Assembly (NCBI GenBank): GCA_035574915.1
Contig: DATLYJ010000105.1
Coordinates: 1-51,179, forward strand
From: Dehalococcoidia bacterium
GTDB lineage: Bacteria > Chloroflexota > Dehalococcoidia > DSTF01 > WHTK01
DNA length: 51,179 bases
Direction of reading: 5' to 3'
The notes under the pieces are model-generated. The model was not told where the DNA came from and made no database searches. It saw nothing but the letters and a program-made list of their open reading frames with translations. Positions 14,339 to 22,990 of this stretch are shown here, in pieces (position 1 is the stretch's first letter; each line of letters begins with the position of its first letter). The position numbers and the translations under genes are program-made.

Positions 14339-16105
14339 CTAACGGGCTACGTCGGCCCGCATCTCCCCGGCTTCAGCCTCGTGGTTGCCGAAGCGCCAGC
14401 CGCTGCCCAGCCGGTACGCGTTCTCGACGTACTGCTCCATCATGCGCTGGGCATTGAAGAAAGAGCCATTGAGCGCGATGGTGGAGCGCATCACCCGGCC
14501 GTAAGCCTGCGGCCGGTCGTAGAACAGCGGCAATATGACGTAGCGCAGCTTGTTATAGAGCGACCACGCTTCTGAGGCAGAGTCAGACTCGATGTCGGAC
14601 TCGTCCCCGATGGCCCAACCGGTGACGCCTTCGACCCAGCCCTCCACCCACCAGCCGTCAAGCACACTGAGGCTTGGTACGCCGTTAAGCGCCGCCTTCA
14701 TTCCGCTGGTGCCGGAGGCCTCCTGGGGCTTTTGCGGGTTGTTGAGCCACAAGTCCGTCCCGGAGCAGAGGAGCTTGCCCAGGGCCATATCGTGCTCCTC
14801 GAGGTACACGAACTGGATCTCCGGCTTCACGCTCGCGCCGCCCTCGAACACGCGACGGATGAGCGCCTGCCCCGCTTCGTCCCGAGGGTGGGCTTTGCCT
14901 CCGAAGACGAGCTGGATCGGCCCCACGTCCCGCGCGATTGCCTTCAGCCTGTCAGGGTCGGAGAAGAGCAGGGCCGCGCGTTTGTAGGTCGCTGCCCGGC
15001 GCGCAAAGCCGATGGTCATGGCCGTCGCGTCCAACACGACCCCGGTGCGTCGACGCACCTCGGCCAGCAGGGCCTGCTTGGCCCGCGCGTGCGCCTCCAT
15101 AATCTGCTCGACCGGGATGGCGACGGCGTAGCGCAGGTAGGCGTTGTCGCGACGCCACTCCGGCACCTCGCGGTCGAACAGGTCCTGGAAGGGCTGAGAC
15201 GTCCAGGTGGCGGCGTGGACGCCGTTGGTGATGGCGTGCACCCGGTAACCCGGGTACATGGCCTGCGAGACCTCGCCGTGACGCAGGGCGACGCCATTGA
15301 CATAACGAGAGAAGAACAGCGCCAGGAAGGTCATGTTCAGCGTACCGTCGTGCGCGAATGGGAGGCCCCTGAGAGCCGCGGCCCTGGCTTCCCCCAGGAC
15401 TTCCTCCACCAGCGTCATCGGGAAGCGGTCATGGCCGGCTGGCACGGGCGTGTGGGTGGTGAAGACGCACCGCGAGCGCACGGACTCGAAGTCGGCAGGG
15501 GAGGGCGTCTTGGAGCCCTGGCGCGCGAGCGCCGCCTCCAGGAGCGCCAGCGTGATGAGGGCGGAGTGGCCCTCATTCATGTGGTAGGTCTGGATGTCCC
15601 GGCAGCCCAGAGCCTCCAGCAGGGCGATGCCGCCGAAGCCGAGCAGGGCTTCCTGAGCAAGCCGGTAGCGCTCATCGCCGCCGTAGAGCTGGCCGGTGAG
15701 GGCCCGGTCGCGGGGGTCGTTCTGCGGCAGGGCGGCATCGAGGAAGAAGACGGGGACGGTGTGGCCGGACACTCCTTTGACTGTGTAACGCCACGGTCGC
15801 AGCGCTACCTGCCGGCCCTCCACCGTGACTTGCAGGAGAATATCGAGCGGCTCGAGGAACCGGGAAGGCTCCCAGGGATACGGCTCCTCTATTTGCTCGC
15901 CGGACGCCTCCAGGCGCTGGCGGAAGTACCCCTGGCGATGGAGCAGCGTGACCGCCACCATCGGCACACCCAGGTCGGCCGCGGCGCGCAGCGTGTCGCC
16001 GGCGAGCACACCCAGGCCGCCGCTATAGGTCGGCATGGCGGACTCGAGTCCGGCTTCCATCGAGAAGTAGGCGACGCGCGGCGGCGGGGACAGTCGCTCA
16101 AGCAT
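14339..16105 (-). CDS. glgP: Alpha-glucan phosphorylase (GT35)
   Basis: A 588-residue phosphorylase that releases glucose 1-phosphate from glycogen or maltodextrin. The N-terminal YFSMEAGLESAMPTYSGGLG and GVLAGDTLRAAADLG segments and the MNEGHSA motif are typical. The pyridoxal-phosphate lysine lies in GTSGMKAALNG near residue 470. The length fits the short bacterial/archaeal type that lacks the N-terminal allosteric region of the ~800-residue enzymes. No other glycogen gene is nearby. A 7-bp inverted repeat (16138-16144 with 16165-16171) lies just upstream, in the gap after the heme-b protein gene. Confidence 0.95.
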   Translation of the reverse strand: MLERLSPPPRVAYFSMEAGLESAMPTYSGGLGVLAGDTLRAAADLGVPMVAVTLLHRQGYFRQRLEASGEQIEEPYPWEPSRFLEPLDILLQVTVEGRQVALRPWRYTVKGVSGHTVPVFFLDAALPQNDPRDRALTGQLYGGDERYRLAQEALLGFGGIALLEALGCRDIQTYHMNEGHSALITLALLEAALARQGSKTPSPADFESVRSRCVFTTHTPVPAGHDRFPMTLVEEVLGEARAAALRGLPFAHDGTLNMTFLALFFSRYVNGVALRHGEVSQAMYPGYRVHAITNGVHAATWTSQPFQDLFDREVPEWRRDNAYLRYAVAIPVEQIMEAHARAKQALLAEVRRRTGVVLDATAMTIGFARRAATYKRAALLFSDPDRLKAIARDVGPIQLVFGGKAHPRDEAGQALIRRVFEGGASVKPEIQFVYLEEHDMALGKLLCSGTDLWLNNPQKPQEASGTSGMKAALNGVPSLSVLDGWWVEGWVEGVTGWAIGDESDIESDSASEAWSLYNKLRYVILPLFYDRPQAYGRVMRSTIALNGSFFNAQRMMEQYVENAYRLGSGWRFGNHEAEAGEMRADVAR

Positions 16106-16206: not shown

Positions 16207-16824
16207 TTAGACGCCGTGAACAGTCCGCCGCTCCCTCGCCTCGCCGCGACGGTCACGTCGATCACCCGGCGCGGCCGCGACCCTGCCCGGCCGGGCGCTG
16301 CCCTTTAGCGCCCGGTACACCAGGAGGTTGAAGGCCAGCAGGCCGGCGCCGGCGTAGAGGTACTGAGCCCATGCGGCCTCGGTGTCCGTCCCGGCGCCGG
16401 CGCCGTGCGCCAGAGCGAGCGCAAACGCGGCGAATGTCAGGTAGTGCAACAGCCGCCAGGCCCGATAACTCACGAGGTGCCGCACGTAGAAGGCAAGCAC
16501 GATCACGGCCACCAGGTAGAAGGCGAAGACGCCCAGAGCGACGAAGAAGGGCTCGTAAGGCGATGCGAAGGGCAGGAGCAGGCCGCCGAGCGAGAAGCGG
16601 ACGTAATCGTCCGGCCACACGACGAAGATGTGGAACACGGTGACGGCGAGGGTGAGGAGGGAGGTGAAGCGGTGCAGGTCGTAGACGCGGTAGCGGCGTA
16701 GCAGGCGCTCCAGCGCGCCGCCCGTCATCGTCAGCCCGAGTATCACGGACGTCGCGAGCAGGATGAACGCGACGAATCCGGAGGCGCGGTTCAGGTACCA
16801 GTAGGTATGGTCGATTTCGTTCAC
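16207..16824 (-). CDS. Ferric-reductase-like heme-b transmembrane protein (MsrQ/YedZ-like)
   Basis: A 205-residue membrane protein with about six transmembrane helices. Two helices carry His pairs with the 13-15 residue spacing of bis-heme proteins: DLHRF...FHIF and LLHYL...LAHG. No FAD or NAD(P) domain is attached. I start it at GTG 16824, whose GTGA overlaps the ApbE stop codon; a longer upstream frame would run back through ApbE. The family includes MsrQ, which passes quinone or flavin electrons across the membrane. ApbE immediately upstream suggests use of a covalently bound flavin. The C-terminal ~30 residues are basic and cytoplasmic. Confidence 0.87.
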   Translation of the reverse strand: MNEIDHTYWYLNRASGFVAFILLATSVILGLTMTGGALERLLRRYRVYDLHRFTSLLTLAVTVFHIFVVWPDDYVRFSLGGLLLPFASPYEPFFVALGVFAFYLVAVIVLAFYVRHLVSYRAWRLLHYLTFAAFALALAHGAGAGTDTEAAWAQYLYAGAGLLAFNLLVYRALKGSARPGRVAAAPGDRRDRRGEARERRTVHGV

Positions 16825-17741
16825 GCCGCCACCACGTAGGCGCTGAAGCCGCTGCTCCGCAGCACCGACCCGTCGGCGCGGGCGACCAGTCCCTCGACGC
16901 CGGCTTCCCCATCCAGGTACTCCAGGCCCGCTTGCGCTCCCTTGAGAAGCGCGACCTTGGCGTGGAAGTCGGCAAGAGTCGCGCCTGGCGCTACCACCGT
17001 GACCGCCACTGCATCCGTCGAGGCCGGCAGCCCGCTCCGGGGGTCGATCAGGTGGTGGGCCGCGCCCCTGTCGGTCTCCCAGCGCCGGCGGAGCACGCTC
17101 GAAGTGGCAACGCCCCGGTCGACGACGCCGATCAGCATCAGGTCCCGCTGCGGCTCCAGCGGGTCTTCGACCGCGATGTACCACGCATCCTCACCCGGGG
17201 GGTGGCCCAGCGCCGCGAGGTCGCCGCCGCAATCGACGAGGCAGGGCGCGCCGAGCAGGGCGGCCAGGCGGTCAGCGGCCCAGCCCTTGCCCAGCCCGCC
17301 GGAATCCAGGGCTAGACCTAACGGCAGCGTGACCATCCGCCGCCTCTCGTCCAGGCGTATGTCCTCGTACGAGGCCGTCCTCGCTGGCGGCGGGCGTGCG
17401 CGCGCGCTGTCGATGAGCTCGAAGGTGCGGTCGTAGCCAGCTGCTTCGACCTCGTGCAGCAGCGTAGGGTCGAAGATGCCGCCGGAGCGGCGGGCGAGTT
17501 GCAGGCACAGGCTCACGAATTCGAACAGGAGCGGCGAGGCCCTGAAGGCGGTTCCGCGGGCATTGTTCAGCCGGGACAGCTCCGAATAAGGGATGAAGCG
17601 GCTGAGACGCCCCTCGTAAGCGTGCGCCCAGCGCTCGGCCAGCCGGAGACGCCGCTCGGCGCCTGGCGCGTCCGGGCACGTCAAGGCCAGGGTTGTGCCC
17701 ATCGCTCGGAATTCGCGCCGCAGGAGCGTGCTCGCTACCAC
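16821..17741 (-). CDS. apbE: FAD:protein FMN transferase (ApbE family)
   Basis: A 306-residue ApbE-type flavin transferase, which attaches FMN through a phosphoester to Ser/Thr of target proteins. Motifs present are REFRAMGTTLAL at the N-terminus, FDPTLLHEVEAAGYD, DSGGLGKGWAADRL, VDCGGDLAALG and HHLIDPRSGLPA. No signal peptide or lipobox is visible, so it probably acts in the cytoplasm. The GTG start at 17741 overlaps the previous gene's stop (TAGTG), and its own stop overlaps the heme-b gene. No protein in the cluster has a clear flavinylation motif (D..(S/T)GAT), so the target must be unusual or encoded elsewhere. Confidence 0.93.
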   Translation of the reverse strand: MVASTLLRREFRAMGTTLALTCPDAPGAERRLRLAERWAHAYEGRLSRFIPYSELSRLNNARGTAFRASPLLFEFVSLCLQLARRSGGIFDPTLLHEVEAAGYDRTFELIDSARARPPPARTASYEDIRLDERRRMVTLPLGLALDSGGLGKGWAADRLAALLGAPCLVDCGGDLAALGHPPGEDAWYIAVEDPLEPQRDLMLIGVVDRGVATSSVLRRRWETDRGAAHHLIDPRSGLPASTDAVAVTVVAPGATLADFHAKVALLKGAQAGLEYLDGEAGVEGLVARADGSVLRSSGFSAYVVAA

Positions 17742-17965
17742 TAGCTTGCCCTTGTCCGTCCTCGCGGCGTGATCGGCGGAGGGTCTGCGATGGGCGGCGA
17801 GGGTGCTGTGGGCGCGAAGAAGCGCTCGTAATCCACGCCTGGCGCCTCCTGTCCGGTGGCCTCAATGCGCGGGTCGGAGCGGATGACCGCATAGAACGCG
17901 CCGAGGAGGCCCGCGGTCAATGCCAGGATCAGCGCCTTGGCCGGGGCCTGCTTGCGCAGCTTCAT
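17741..17965 (-). CDS. Small single-pass membrane protein
   Basis: A 74-residue protein: basic N-terminus (MKLRKQAPAK), one hydrophobic helix at about residues 11-28 (LILALTAGLLGAFYAVI), then an extracytoplasmic Pro-rich tail. It lies 7 nt after the DUF1501 stop and overlaps the ApbE start, so it is translated as part of the same set. It has no recognisable domain. Position suggests a partner or anchor for the heme-b protein, but that is inference. Confidence 0.75.
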   Translation of the reverse strand: MKLRKQAPAKALILALTAGLLGAFYAVIRSDPRIEATGQEAPGVDYERFFAPTAPSPPIADPPPITPRGRTRAS

Positions 17966-17972
17966 GGCCGCC

Positions 17973-19226
17973 TCACGCGTCGAGGAAGTTCAGCTGCGAG
18001 AAGCGGCCGTTGAGCACGTCGTCCGCGGGGGCCTTGAGCCAGCGCTCCAGGATCGTGGCGTAGACGGAACGGAAGTCAGTCGTAAAGCGCAGGTTGCCGT
18101 TGTCCAGGCTGCTGAGGCTCGGAGGCTCGCCGTAGAAGCCGCCCTTCACCTGGTTGCCGACGACAAACATGGGCACTGCCCAGCCGTGGTCGGTGCCGGC
18201 CTGGGCATTCTCGCCGGCCCGCCGGCCGAACTCTGACCAGGTCATTATCAGCACGTCGTCGCCGTGGCCGTGGGCGTTGACGTCTGTCCAGAAGGCGTGG
18301 ATGGCCTCACTCGTCTCGCGCAGGAGGCGGGTCAGGGTGTTCGGCTGGTTGGTGTGCGTGTCGAAGCCGCCGATGAAGACGTGCCCGACGCGCAGCGGCG
18401 AGGCCCCCGGCTGGCCGCCGGAGTCGATCAGCTCGGCGAGGAGCCTCATACCCGTGGCCAGTGAGCTCTGAGGGTAGGTGACCGCAGGCTTGTAGTTGCT
18501 GTGCGCCTCGCTGAGCTGGATGGAGCTCCGGTAGGCGTTGTCCAGCGTCGTGTCCAGGAGCGCCGCGAAGCGTGTGTTCGCCGGCCGGTACACATCGTAC
18601 AGCTTCATGAGGCTGGTCCGGCGCAGGTCCGGGTTCGGATCGCCCACCGCATTCTGCAACTGGAAGGACTCCAGGCTCGCGACGGCGGGGATCGAGACCT
18701 TGTCCGACTGGAAGGCCTCCGGCAGGCGGTTGCCGTAGCTCAGACCGGTGAGCGGGTGTCCTTCCGCGTCCGTGAGGCCCTCGAAGTAGCGCCCCAACCA
18801 GCCCTCGTTGACCTTGCCTTCGGGATCGGCGAACTGCCAGATGTCCATCGCCTTGAAGTGCGAGAAGTTCGGGTTCTGGTAGCCGACCCCCTCGATTACC
18901 GCCAGCTTGCCCGCGTCCAGGATCTCCTTCATCCGGCTGAAGGAGGGGTGAAAAGCCGCGCGGTCATTCACCGGGATCATGTCGCTCTCGGTGATCGCCA
19001 GCTCGTTGCGGTAGCGGCGGTAGTTCAGGTCGCGGTAGGGGATCACGGTATTCAGGCCGTCGACACCGCCCGCCATCTGGACGACGATCAGCGTCTTGCC
19101 CGATACGGAGCGCACGCTTGATTCCTCGGCTGCGGCAGCGACGGCCTTCGAAAACACCGAGGGCACTGCCAGCCCCAGCGAGACGACGGCTAGGCTCTGC
19201 TGGACGAAGTCTCTTCGCGTGATCAT
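17973..19226 (-). CDS. DUF1501 protein, Tat-exported
   Basis: A 417-residue protein beginning with a twin-arginine signal (TRRDFVQ followed by a hydrophobic run to about residue 30). The mature part has the DUF1501 outline: VVQMAGGVDGLNTVIPY, FHPSFSRMKEI, GFDTHTNQ and TWSEFGRRAGEN...TDHG. These resemble the metal-binding core of alkaline-phosphatase/sulfatase-fold enzymes. DUF1501 proteins are almost always paired with DUF1800, as here (38 nt between genes). Biochemical activity is unknown for the family. The gene order suggests co-function with the ApbE and heme-b products at the cell envelope. Confidence 0.92.
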   Translation of the reverse strand: MITRRDFVQQSLAVVSLGLAVPSVFSKAVAAAAEESSVRSVSGKTLIVVQMAGGVDGLNTVIPYRDLNYRRYRNELAITESDMIPVNDRAAFHPSFSRMKEILDAGKLAVIEGVGYQNPNFSHFKAMDIWQFADPEGKVNEGWLGRYFEGLTDAEGHPLTGLSYGNRLPEAFQSDKVSIPAVASLESFQLQNAVGDPNPDLRRTSLMKLYDVYRPANTRFAALLDTTLDNAYRSSIQLSEAHSNYKPAVTYPQSSLATGMRLLAELIDSGGQPGASPLRVGHVFIGGFDTHTNQPNTLTRLLRETSEAIHAFWTDVNAHGHGDDVLIMTWSEFGRRAGENAQAGTDHGWAVPMFVVGNQVKGGFYGEPPSLSSLDNGNLRFTTDFRSVYATILERWLKAPADDVLNGRFSQLNFLDA

Positions 19227-19264
19227 TGCTGCTCCTCCTTCTCCGCCAGCACGAGCCGTTTCCG

Positions 19265-20776
19265 CTAGGCGAGGTGGAACTGCGGCGATGCCAGGATCAG
19301 GTAGACCAGGCCGCGGAGCTGCTCTGGCGAGAGCGGCGCGTCCGGCCCGCCGGCATAGTCGAGGAGGACCCGGCGCGCCTCCTCGGGCACGTTGTCATCG
19401 AGCACCAGGGGCAGGTAGTAGTCGAGCGCCTGGGCGGCTGTACCGAGGTTCGCTCCCGGGGCCGGCTGCGATTGCTGGCGCGCGCCGCGAGGCGCCGGCT
19501 GGGGCGCGCCGCCCGTCACCAGGTTGATGAAGTTGAGCCTGGCGAACATGGTCGCGCTGTTGAGCCACGTCTCACCGCCAGGCCAGCCGGCAACATTCGG
19601 GGGCTCATACAGCACCTGGCCCATCTGCGCCAACGTCTGGCCCCGGTTCTGCGCCACCAGGCCGGCCACGCCGCCCTGCAACCCCAGCGCCTTGATCGCC
19701 GCCACGGCGTACTCCACGGGACTACGGACGATGGACCTGTAAGCCCGGGGCGAGTACATCTCGTCCGAGCGCAGGATGGCCTCGACAGTGGCGCCGATGC
19801 TCTTGCCGCTGCCCAAATAGGTGTCCACGAAGGGCTTGAGTGTCTGCTCATCGGCGCCGGGGTAGGCGAAGAATGCGAACAGCTTGCCCACTATGAAAGA
19901 CGCCGAGGCCGGCTGCTCGACAATGATGTCGATGACGTCTTCGGGCCGGAAGTTGCCGCTGCGGCCCAGCACGGTCTTCGTGCCGCCATCGAACAGGTTG
20001 GGACGGAAGGTTGGTTCGTCGTACTCGAAGTCGTTGTTGCCTGTACGCCGCCGGGGCACGAACCAGCCTGTGAAGGCGCGCGCGGCCTCGCGGATGTCCT
20101 GCTCGGTGTAATTGCCGATGCCCAGCGCGAAGAGCTCCATGAGCTCGCGCGCATAGTTCTCATTGGGCGCGCGCCGCTGGCTGCCGCTGATGTCCAGGTA
20201 GATCATCATGGCGGGGTCCATGGAGATGCCCTTGAGGATCTCGGGGAACGTCGCCATGGCGTTGGCGCGGAAGAAGTTGTTCTGCCGCTCCATCATCTCC
20301 GGGACCTGGACGACGCTGATCTGGCTCGTGAGGAGCCCGTGCCAGAAGAGCGTCATCTTCTCCTGCAGAGGCCGCTTGGTGTTGGCCATGCGGACCAGCC
20401 AGCGCGTGGGGAGTCCCTGCCGGTCGAGCGGTATCTGGCCCGCCAGCGTCTCGGCCGCGGAGTCATCGACGCTCGTGTAGTTGACGAGTTCGTCGATCGT
20501 TGCCTTGAGGCCGAGGCTCTGGTAGTGGTCGTACTCTTCGCGGCTGACGCCGAAACCGGCGCGGCGGAGGAGGTGATTGATCCGGACGCTTTCCTTCTTC
20601 AGGGCATCGGCGTCAGACCTGGTGGAGCCGGACGACAGGCCGTCGAGGATGCCGAACTTGTCACCCAGGGCAGCATAGGTGACGGCGACGGAAGCGGCGG
20701 CGATTGAACCACCCAGGATAGCCCTGCGCGTGGTTGAGGTCTTGAGCAGGGATTCCCGTGTTTGCTGTGCGGTCAT
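19265..20776 (-). CDS. DUF1800 protein, Tat-type export signal
   Basis: A 503-residue protein with TTRRAILGGSIAAASVAVTY near residues 15-34, a twin-arginine-like signal. The mature region matches DUF1800: INHLLRRAGFG, FWHGLLTSQ, NENYARELMELFALG, REAARAFTGW and PPNVAGWPGGETWL. The family's function is not established. It is the first gene of the five-gene set and pairs with DUF1501. The region 20777-20888 upstream is comparatively AT-rich and probably holds the promoter, although I see no consensus elements I trust. Confidence 0.92.
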   Translation of the reverse strand: MTAQQTRESLLKTSTTRRAILGGSIAAASVAVTYAALGDKFGILDGLSSGSTRSDADALKKESVRINHLLRRAGFGVSREEYDHYQSLGLKATIDELVNYTSVDDSAAETLAGQIPLDRQGLPTRWLVRMANTKRPLQEKMTLFWHGLLTSQISVVQVPEMMERQNNFFRANAMATFPEILKGISMDPAMMIYLDISGSQRRAPNENYARELMELFALGIGNYTEQDIREAARAFTGWFVPRRRTGNNDFEYDEPTFRPNLFDGGTKTVLGRSGNFRPEDVIDIIVEQPASASFIVGKLFAFFAYPGADEQTLKPFVDTYLGSGKSIGATVEAILRSDEMYSPRAYRSIVRSPVEYAVAAIKALGLQGGVAGLVAQNRGQTLAQMGQVLYEPPNVAGWPGGETWLNSATMFARLNFINLVTGGAPQPAPRGARQQSQPAPGANLGTAAQALDYYLPLVLDDNVPEEARRVLLDYAGGPDAPLSPEQLRGLVYLILASPQFHLA

Positions 20777-20888: not shown

Positions 20889-21068
20889 CTATACGACGGA
20901 GGGCAGCGGCCACTTGAGGTCGCAGCTCAGGCAGCGGGCCTGGACGAGCACGCCGTCTGCCCAGTAGGAGATGGTGAAGGACTCGTGGCAGCGAGGGCAC
21001 TGCTGATCGCCGAGACGGACCTCCTTCGATTTGCTTGGAGGCGCCGGCTGCTGCTGACTGCTTGTCAT
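20889..21068 (-). CDS. Small zinc-ribbon protein
   Basis: A 59-residue protein starting at ATG 21068 behind AGGAG. Its first 20 residues are polar (MTSSQQQPAP onward), followed by CPRC near residue 24 and CLSC near residue 47, separated by about 20 residues with FTISYWADG. That spacing is a classic zinc ribbon. Such small proteins usually bind nucleic acid or act as metal-stabilised adaptors. It lies upstream of DUF1800 on the same strand with a 112-nt gap, and is divergent from the TlpA-like gene (29 bp between starts), so the two starts share a control region. Confidence 0.75.
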   Translation of the reverse strand: MTSSQQQPAPPSKSKEVRLGDQQCPRCHESFTISYWADGVLVQARCLSCDLKWPLPSVV

Positions 21069-21097: not shown

Positions 21098-22045
21098 ATG
21101 ACGCGAGGCTTCTTGGTGCAGAAGTATATCAACTGGCGGCGCGCGGCCTCCGGCGCCGCGGTGACGGCGCTCCTGCTCCTGCCGCTTTACCTCCTGGTCC
21201 TGCGGCCCGCGAGCACCAGCGCCATCGAGCCGGCGATCCTTCTCGACACGTCTCCTGGCGGCGCGACTACGGCCGTCGGCGTCGCCGAGGGCAAGCTGGC
21301 GCCTGACTTCGAAATATCGCCTCCAGAAGGCCCGCGCTTTCGCCTCAGCGACCTTCGCGGGCGGCCCGTCCTGATCAACTTCTGGGCAACCTGGTGCGGC
21401 AGTTGCCTGTCTGAGATGCCGGTGATCAAGCAACTGCAGGAGGAGCGCGGCCTCGACACCTTTGCGGTGCTGGCCGTGAACGCGGGCGAGACGCCAAGGC
21501 AGGCCCAGGAGTTCATCGACTTTCTGGAGGCCCCCTTCCTCTACGGCCTGGACATAGACATGAGGGTCACGGACGCCTACGGCGTCTACGGCCTGCCGCT
21601 CAGCGTCTTCGTCGATGCCAGCGGCGTGGTGCAGGCCCTGTACCGCGGTCACGCCGATAAGGCGCTCCTCACCCGCCTCCTGGACGCCGCCTCTGCCGCG
21701 ACACCGCCCGGCGAGATCGCGCCCGTGCTGCGCATCGTTTCCACCATTCCCCGTGAGCGGCTCCTTGTCGTGAAGGCCCAGGGGAGCAGGCTCGTTTCGG
21801 AATCACGAACCCTGCGCTGCGACCTCACTTACTGCGCCGGCGACGCCGTGCAGGCATTGCGGGAAGTGGCGGGCGTGAAGCGCGTCGACTTTCGCTCGGC
21901 CGGCGGGTCCGTAAAGTTGACGGTCGAGTTCGACCGCCGCGTAATCGACGGCCGGGCCCTGGCGGAGGAGCTGGCGCGTCGCCTCGAGGCGAGCCCGGAC
22001 CCTCTCTACGAAGGCCCGGTGCTGGTGAGGTACGAGGGTGGATAG
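21098..22045 (+). CDS. Membrane-anchored TlpA-like thioredoxin with an extra C-terminal ferredoxin-fold domain
   Basis: A 315-residue protein from ATG 21098 with no obvious ribosome-binding site. One transmembrane anchor (about residues 15-38) exposes the rest outside the membrane. The thioredoxin domain (about 65-205) has the redox motif WATWCGSCLSEMP and the cis-proline region YGLPLSVFVD. After residue ~230 a second domain shows beta-alpha-beta-beta-alpha-beta alternation (LRCDLTYCAGDAVQALREV, then VKRVDF, VKLTVEF). This resembles a heavy-metal-associated domain, with C-x4-C instead of CxxC. The fusion suggests thiol redox control of a metal or a partner cysteine protein at the cell surface. 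Confidence 0.85.
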   Translation: MTRGFLVQKYINWRRAASGAAVTALLLLPLYLLVLRPASTSAIEPAILLDTSPGGATTAVGVAEGKLAPDFEISPPEGPRFRLSDLRGRPVLINFWATWCGSCLSEMPVIKQLQEERGLDTFAVLAVNAGETPRQAQEFIDFLEAPFLYGLDIDMRVTDAYGVYGLPLSVFVDASGVVQALYRGHADKALLTRLLDAASAATPPGEIAPVLRIVSTIPRERLLVVKAQGSRLVSESRTLRCDLTYCAGDAVQALREVAGVKRVDFRSAGGSVKLTVEFDRRVIDGRALAEELARRLEASPDPLYEGPVLVRYEGG

Positions 22046-22084
22046 CGGCGCCTGCCGCCGGGCCTCCGAGGCCCCTGGACACCG

Positions 22085-22668
22085 ATGATCGACCGTTCGG
22101 CCCTCACAACGGAGTTCGAAGAGGCGATCGGCGACCTGGAGCGGGCGCTGCGGGAGTGCCCGGACGACCTCTGGGAAGCAAGCGCCTGGCGGGTCAAGAA
22201 GACCGACGCCTGGGTCTGGCCCCGTGAAGGCGTGACGCCGGTCCCGGAGCGCACCGAGGAGTCGATCCAGTCACTGTCTGCTGTCTGGGTGGTTGCCTAC
22301 CACTGCCTGTGGTTCCTCGACTTCTACACGAGCACGGGCGAGGGCTTCGAAAGCCCCGAGTACGTCCGCGGCGGCCCCGAAGAGCAAGGCATGGCAGCCG
22401 ATGGCGCCGCGCGCCTCCCGGCCCCCGTCTACCCGCGCGAGGTGCTGCTTCGCTACCTGGACCACGGGCGGCGCAAGGTCCGGCACACCATCGCGACTAT
22501 CAGCGAAGAGGAGCTGCGGGCGGTATGTGTCCGTCCTGGCACCCCCACCGCGGCAAGACCCTCGAACAGCTCCTGGAAGTGAACCTCGCGCATGCCCGCC
22601 AGCACGCGGGCGACCTGCTGGCCTTCGTCAGGCGGCAGGCCGGCGTCAGGCCCCGGCAGGCTACCTAG
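22085..22668 (+). pseudogene. Second DinB-family protein with a frameshift near its C-terminus
   Basis: Reading from ATG 22085 gives a DinB-fold N-terminus and core (VWVVAYHCLWFLDFYT, YLDHGRRKVRHTIATISEEE). After about residue 148 the frame loses resemblance and stops at 22582. The -1 frame continues the family pattern (PSWHPHRGKTLEQLLE, then NLAHARQHAGDLLAFV) to TAG 22666-22668. Removing a GT from the TGTGT run at 22526-22530, or adding one base there, restores one 190-residue frame with the third metal-ligand His region. This is either a recent frameshift or an assembly error. Confidence 0.8.
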
Positions 22669-22700
22669 ACCGAGGGGAGCAGCCGGGCGTCGGGCGCGCC

Positions 22701-22940
22701 TTAACGCAGATAGGCGGCCAGGCGGCCCTCGGTGAGCGCGTCCGCGTCGCTCGCGGCGACGGCGGCAGGGTCCAGGCGGGCGCCCAGGCGTACCAACAGC
22801 GACGCAAGCCGCGAGCGCAGGGGGCGGCGCGCAGCCTCAGGCTCCCTGAGCTCGGCTATCCAGACGGCCTGGATGAGGCCGCGCTCGACCTCGTGCTGAC
22901 GCATCCAGGCCAGGGCCTCGGCCTCGAGCCAATTGAACAT
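22701..22940 (-). CDS. Small unrecognised protein
   Basis: A 79-residue protein starting at ATG 22940 behind GGGAGGGATTAG. It is mostly alpha-helical (MFNWLEAEALAWMRQHEVER, then LIQAVWIAEL), leucine- and arginine-rich, with no cysteines or membrane helix. The upstream region (22967-23040) is unusually AT-rich and has a clear inverted repeat. The good ribosome-binding site and dedicated regulatory region support a real gene. No function assigned. Confidence 0.6.
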   Translation of the reverse strand: MFNWLEAEALAWMRQHEVERGLIQAVWIAELREPEAARRPLRSRLASLLVRLGARLDPAAVAASDADALTEGRLAAYLR

Positions 22941-22966
22941 TTCTAATCCCTCCCGGAGAAATTATC

Positions 22967-22990
22967 GGTGATTCCTATCACCCCTGTATA
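22967..22990 (-). promoter_or_regulatory. Promoter and operator-like palindrome of the small 79-residue gene
   Basis: A perfect inverted repeat GGTGAT-TCCT-ATCACC (22967-22982) lies immediately downstream (minus strand) of TATACA (22990-22985), a -10-like hexamer. A regulator bound here would cover the start site. The whole 22960-23040 stretch is much more AT-rich than its surroundings. Confidence 0.45.

Follow-up and report, generated by a model that had tools for sequence, protein, structure and literature searches.

A small membrane protein with a conserved C-terminal serine motif as candidate flavin acceptor of an ApbE and heme-b gene unit in Chloroflexota and Actinomycetota

In the published target motif of ApbE, D-x-x-[ST]-G-A-[ST], flavin mononucleotide (FMN) is carried by the last serine or threonine; seven residues suffice for the enzyme, protein termini work best and exchange of the Asp for Ala has little effect (PMC12052999). 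In MsrQ-like clusters, where the gene for a PF01794 cytochrome adjoins apbE, an FMN_bind gene is typical (Meheust et al. 2021, PMC8238504), and some of the genomes with 'orphan apbE' genes were resolved by DUF2271 and DUF3570, ApbE substrates that lack FMN_bind (PMC8238504); cytosolic ApbEs and orphan apbE genes that are still open are described as well (among PMC8238504, PMC12052999, PMC11334425 and PMC5122149). The locus considered here lies in a window of 51,179 nucleotides, contig DATLYJ010000105.1 (C105) of the Dehalococcoidia bacterium assembly GCA_035574915.1 (Chloroflexota; 3.25 Mb, 96.4% complete), and encodes DUF1800 and DUF1501 proteins, a 74-amino-acid protein with a single transmembrane (TM) segment, hereafter the tail protein, ApbE and a heme-b membrane protein. 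This system is a variant of MsrQ-like flavinylated electron transfer: it shares the PF01794 cytochrome gene beside apbE with the described clusters and differs from them in that cluster and genome are both without FMN_bind, with the tail protein in its place. The tail protein is most likely the missing flavin acceptor, and it likely represents an overlooked family of flavin carriers with members in two phyla.

The five open reading frames (ORFs), all on the minus strand at 16207-20776, are as tightly packed as the original prediction, made from the letters alone, had stated, with spacers of 38 bases between the DUF1800 and DUF1501 genes and 7 bases between the latter and the tail gene, followed by overlaps of 1 base (tail gene/ApbE) and 4 bases (ApbE/heme-b); their Pfam matches are also those that it had named. 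It was equally right that no product carries a clear D..(S/T)GAT motif, D..[ST]GA[ST] occurring in none of the five, and that ApbE lacks a signal peptide, the N-terminus of the enzyme not being hydrophobic. Aligned by eye with solved FmnB/ApbE structures, this ApbE, exactly one of which is encoded by the source genome, retains the active-site Ser, His and Asp. A standard FMN-bind target elsewhere in the genome, which would have explained ApbE in another way, was sought and not found: the source genome encodes no FMN_bind, NqrB/RnfD, DUF2271 or DUF3570 protein, the search having covered these families and not Flavodoxin_4 or extended FMN_red. The adjacency of a signal-less ApbE and a cytochrome b of predicted ferric reductase fold, in a genome without FMN_bind, supports the envelope electron-transfer system that had been envisaged. 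The signal peptide on ApbE or FMN_bind for which the 2021 survey filtered (PMC8238504) is absent here, as judged by hydropathy only, and the lack of a signal on ApbE is a further difference from the described MsrQ-like clusters.

The same combination recurs in a sample of 294 genomes of the class, among which the heme-b family, defined by profile A1, is present in 38 (intersections of the genome lists for heme-b, ApbE, FMN_bind, DUF1501 and NqrB/RnfD were made by hand). ApbE is found in 37 of these 38 genomes versus 33 of the other 256. FMN_bind accompanies ApbE in 5 of those 37, versus 30 of the 33 ApbE genomes that have no heme-b (Fisher 4e-11, a guide only because the genomes are related). 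NqrB/RnfD matches occur in six of the 38, namely the five FMN_bind genomes and G293, and DUF2271 and DUF3570 are absent from all 38; of the 37 that also encode ApbE, 31 have no member of these four known acceptor families. Each of the five FMN_bind genes directly adjoins a second ApbE gene elsewhere in its genome, and in a tree of 66 ApbEs the nine FMN_bind-linked enzymes form one clade with support 99/97, the backbone being weak and the root placed at the midpoint. In some of these genomes an FMN_bind - ApbE - NqrB/RnfD-like system exists separately, its ApbE belonging to a clade of its own (loci L119-L124 in G059, G071, G129, G210, G282 and G220, and L016 in G007). In the same tree, the ApbE of L108, a contig titled Bifidobacterium breve, groups with those of Caldilineaceae/Anaerolineae, and the contig probably represents a mislabelled or contaminated metagenome-assembled genome.

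The extreme C-terminus of the tail protein, T-R-A-S-COOH, is kept in relatives. Within the order, the unit of small TM gene, ApbE and heme-b is found repeatedly without the DUF pair, the small TM proteins ending in RTRAS (window), RTHAS, RTHVS, RTSVS, TTRAS, RTRVS or STNGS; within the class, the ends further include RSRGS, KSKGS and RSRAS. A tail protein with the motif [ST]-x-[AGSV]-S, sometimes followed by one residue, is encoded beside ApbE and/or heme-b in 36 of the 38 heme-b genomes, the other two being G020, which alone lacks ApbE, and G213, in which ApbE is cut off by the end of the contig (genes in this GC-rich DNA were called by codon usage, with eight genes of the window as training set). 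Of 31 named loci, eight repeat genomes already counted; 19 of the 23 further ones have a tail, which in seven cases runs on for one more residue (VTRSSR, TTGSSK and the like), and two of the 19 are assigned by title to Actinomycetota, namely to Acidimicrobiales and Actinokineospora, with tails TQTSGS and TTSGGS. L081 and L050 are tail-less, and L019 and L023 are ApbE loci with neither heme-b nor tail adjoining. A plasmid search returned eight records, six of which were inspected (H4 and H5, from Rhodococcus, were left out), and a tail is present in all six actinobacterial plasmid loci (TTKGS, ATRAS, RSAGS, RSAGS, HTAAS and STRAS). There the tail genes directly precede those for ApbE and a ferric reductase-like protein, after which genes for a NuoF-like protein and a ferredoxin come in the five loci with named products; some actinobacterial MsrQ-like systems likewise have NuoF-like and VIT genes (PMC8238504). 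In the plasmid records the tail genes are either not annotated or called 'hypothetical', four of the six being missing from the gene table, itself incomplete. No Pfam or NCBIfam match, FMN_bind (PF04205) included, was obtained for the 74-residue protein, and none of the tail proteins of relatives has a Pfam match over cut-off.

Selection of proteins by position alone, blind to the C-terminus, recovers the same motif. The rule took same-strand ORFs of 50-330 residues, with a hydrophobic segment that lies 40 or more residues from the C-terminus and a stop no farther than 300 bases 5' of ApbE or heme-b; 62 of 93 such ORFs end in [ST].[AGSV]S (66 of 93 if one further residue is allowed) versus 0 of 133 upstream of other genes, and 2 of 952 called proteins overall do so, these being counts of rows related by descent and not independent. 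Sorted by hand, the 31 non-strict ORFs comprise 11 ApbEs upstream of heme-b, eight acidic-tail proteins, four tails with one extra residue, four variants (RQS, RQS, RMS and RRS), one FMN_bind protein and three others. The named and plasmid loci, found after the motif had been framed, provide a partial independent check.

Anatomical statistics were compiled for 84 tails, 75 of them strict [ST].[AGSV]S (row 7906 of L055, the heme-b gene itself, was dropped to leave 84; among atypically placed pattern matches, L102 5590-5784 is included as a second tail of L102, and L111 4864-5034 and L118 3321-4814 are not). The mean number of Lys/Arg residues is 3.77 in the N-terminal flank versus 0.89 past the helix, with more on the N-terminal side in 77 of 84 tails, and because of this asymmetry the N-terminus is predicted to lie inside and the tail, probably, outside. 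The linker measures 32-207 residues (median 68) and is rich in Ala, Pro and Thr. With the Ser at -1 fixed by selection, the strict tails have T (39) or S (36) at -4 and G (32), A (27), S (8), V (4) or others (4) at -2. All six Ser codons are used for the terminal position, and several codons occur at -4 and -3, so that selection acts on the protein and not on a ribosome-binding site; an artefact of the latter kind is ruled out by this mixture of codons and by tails that precede heme-b, not ApbE.

Two observations concern further small proteins of these loci. The source genome has a second heme-b gene (G000:C71, ~21905-22980; L055 7906-8981) with no adjoining ApbE and with its own tail protein, which ends in RARARTRAS and has an Asp/Glu-rich stretch in the linker. 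Another kind of small TM protein, perhaps metal-binding and ending in an acidic run of His and Asp (...HDDDDHEDDD), is repeatedly encoded next to heme-b or ApbE (L034 319-651, L040 5648-5950, L061 1131-1445, L068 5806-6108 and others).

The tail resembles the minimal ApbE motif [ST]-G-A-[ST], to which the T-R-A-S of the window and the [ST]-x-[AGSV]-S of the family contribute an S/T and a Ser that match its two S/T positions. Tail protein, ApbE and di-heme cytochrome b probably make up a three-part unit, with FMN on the tail Ser replacing FMN_bind. Somewhat less firmly, the evidence leans towards a natural 'flavin swinging arm': small single-pass proteins of Chloroflexota and Actinomycetota would form a family in which nothing but the anchor and a C-terminal tetrapeptide is conserved. 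A cytosolic ApbE would flavinylate this tetrapeptide before export, and the tethered FMN would then serve the di-heme cytochrome b as a substitute for the folded FMN_bind domain. ApbE would attach FMN to the conserved Ser while the tail is still in the cytosol, an acceptor at the very end being, presumably, the last part to leave it; the N-terminal helix would then serve as anchor, and the linker would allow the FMN to move back and forth from the heme-b protein to a partner outside the cytoplasm. Electrons would cross the membrane through the heme-b protein, either towards the tethered FMN or away from it, and the tail protein would thereby take over the role that the folded FMN_bind domain has in ordinary MsrQ-like systems. 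For Actinomycetota, NAD(P)H is the probable donor, by way of the NuoF-like protein and the ferredoxin whose genes follow, and the outer partner may vary. The original prediction had proposed the small TM protein as a possible connector; that it matters is borne out, and it is likely the flavin acceptor itself and not a mere connector.

Several points weigh against the tail as flavin carrier. One weakness is the replacement of the Gly of the published motif, which is Arg in 55, Lys in 6 and Gly in only 5 of the 75 strict tails (others in 9), exchange of this Gly for Ala having been found to lower flavinylation to about half (PMC12052999). The C-terminus is predicted outside in 77 of 84 tails, while 0 of 50 ApbEs of these loci have a hydrophobic N-terminus, judged by hydropathy only, so that modification before export is needed. 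Nine tails carry one extra residue, and the Ser is therefore not always terminal; four of the 23 further named loci (L097, L104, L111 and L112) have no tail; and the tail pattern was framed after the first examples had been seen.

Arg-rich tails, both before and inside the motif, would be equally explained by a docking peptide, the tail protein being a cytochrome subunit or assembly factor whose basic, Ser-ended tail docks on heme-b or a peptidase and carries no FMN, with ApbE modifying another protein; and the tail also accompanies heme-b in genomes that encode ApbE at another place (L054, L044 and L046). ApbE is nevertheless encoded in 37 of the 38 heme-b genomes, 31 of these 37 are without any tested acceptor family, and the S/T and Ser of the tail align with the two S/T of the ApbE motif, with Gly kept at -3 in some (TTSGGS, GRSGGS, GGTGGS and TSTGSS), which makes such docking an unlikely explanation. 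That ApbE acts as a flavin adenine dinucleotide (FAD) pyrophosphatase or flavin-supply enzyme, like Ftp of Treponema, and that the tail is unrelated to flavin, is hardly likely at all: the activity has been published for one ApbE homologue (PMC4767422), but it would leave the conserved tail and its positional swap with FMN_bind unexplained.

A flavinylated tail would have only partial parallels among described ApbE substrates. DUF2271 and DUF3570 share the presence of a motif at the acceptor, but are domains of ~135 and 420 residues with canonical [ST]GA[ST] (PMC8238504). FMN_red proteins have the flavinylation site on an unstructured C-terminal extension, which however extends a folded flavoprotein and is found mainly in Firmicutes (PMC11334425). 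The seven-residue Flavin-tag demonstrates that ApbE requires no more than a short motif, best placed at a terminus, but is engineered and has the canonical D-x-x-[ST]-G-A-[ST], whereas the tail is natural, mostly has Arg for Gly and has no conserved Asp (PMC12052999). Small membrane proteins flavinylated at the C-terminus were not found in the literature searched, a statement limited to those searches and to the accessible sections. The tail is a testable acceptor candidate across two phyla, encoded together with enzyme and cytochrome. If the assignment is true, the tail would be a minimal natural ApbE substrate and would account for many 'orphan' apbE genes, and natural ApbE needs neither a folded domain nor the motif Gly, which would aid flavin-tag design.

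The heme-b protein matches PF01794 (Ferric_reduct) with 29.4 bits against a cut-off of 28. Its residues H51, H65, H127 and H140 are invariant in alignments of 27 and 30 rows and are the proposed heme ligands. In an AlphaFold2 model built from 27 rows (predicted local distance difference test, pLDDT, 91.7), the four His are placed as two pairs on two helices, as in the ferric reductase / NOX / STEAP fold, an arrangement that would suit two hemes; the model superposes on SpNOX with Z 14.8 (root-mean-square deviation 3.0, 154 residues aligned), on STEAP4 with Z 14.0 and on cytochrome b561 with Z 13.0, helical folds possibly reaching ~13 by chance. A sequence profile also finds SpNOX (E 1.2e-5). 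Pfam detects no FAD/NAD domain, for which a protein of only 205 residues leaves no room.

The DUF1800-DUF1501 pair is recurrent and linked to heme-b, but dispensable. DUF1501 is found in 26 of the 38 heme-b genomes (three with E above 1e-6) versus 68 of the 256 others, and the pair lies beside heme-b in seven genomes of two families, which makes the link more than chance; besides the source genome, these are G017 of the same family, with the order DUF1800-DUF1501-tail-heme-b-phosphorylase and its ApbE on another contig, and five genomes of family f36 (G075, G129, G180, G210 and G219). The pair is not core, because 12 of the 38 lack DUF1501 and because the small TM-ApbE-heme-b unit occurs in the order without the pair. 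We take the N-terminal STTRRAILGG of DUF1800 and ITRRDFVQ of DUF1501 to resemble twin-arginine signals. The enrichment of DUF1501 and the adjacency of the pair would also fit DUF1501, DUF1800 or the heme-b protein itself as the acceptor through an unrecognised site, yet this is quite improbable: no [ST]G[AS][ST] is conserved in the DUF proteins of these loci, the sole instance in either window protein being a non-conserved SGST past the DUF1800 signal region, 12 of the 38 heme-b genomes do without DUF1501, and the invariant columns of the heme-b family hold no conserved S/T motif. Both DUF proteins, suggested earlier as novel flavin acceptors, are accordingly rejected in that role. In the lineage of the source genome, they may instead be a likely but optional redox partner of the tethered FMN. 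The DUF1800 model (pLDDT 71) has no structural match at E <=0.001 or Z >=5, the best, a phycobilisome linker fragment, scoring 4.9, and neither protein has sequence relatives in the PDB at E 0.01. The same tandem pair, with a twin-arginine signal on DUF1501, is also found with bacterial chitin synthases, for which the accessible sections mention neither ApbE nor a cytochrome as partner (PMC5122149). DUF1501 of G017 (L054 8545-9799) is split into two overlapping frames, probably by an assembly error or a real frameshift.

Coordinates of the features in the window, with their basis
Feature	Position	Strand	Basis
Tail protein (74 residues), proposed flavin carrier	17741-17965	-	TM anchor at the N-terminus, linker rich in Pro/Ala, R-T-R-A-S at the C-terminus
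TM segment of the tail protein, ~residues 10-28	17882-17938	-	Hydropathy maximum
C-terminal T-R-A-S codons (ACA AGG GCA AGC); terminal Ser = proposed FMN site	17744-17755	-	Sequence, conservation
ApbE (FAD:protein FMN transferase), lacking signal peptide and TM segment	16821-17741	-	PF02424, 166.7 bits
Heme-b membrane protein, predicted ferric reductase / NOX / STEAP fold	16207-16824	-	GTG start at 16824; PF01794
His51 codon, proposed heme ligand	16672-16674	-	Invariant
His65 codon, proposed heme ligand	16630-16632	-	Invariant
His127 codon, proposed heme ligand	16444-16446	-	Invariant
His140 codon, proposed heme ligand	16405-16407	-	Invariant
DUF1501 protein	17973-19226	-	PF07394, 107.9 bits; conserved GGFDTH, TWSEFGRR and DHG blocks
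DUF1800 protein	19265-20776	-	PF08811, 335.6 bits; same neighbour in G017, L054

The surroundings of the cluster are partly shared by the two family members. A carbohydrate phosphorylase gene lies 3' of the heme-b gene in both (window 14339-16105, minus strand; L054 10803-12512), and a CxxC...CxxC protein of 58-59 residues, with the consensus VRLGDQ.CPRCHESF...RCLSC.LKWPLP.VV, is kept upstream of DUF1800 (window 20889-21068, minus strand; L054 5998-6174).

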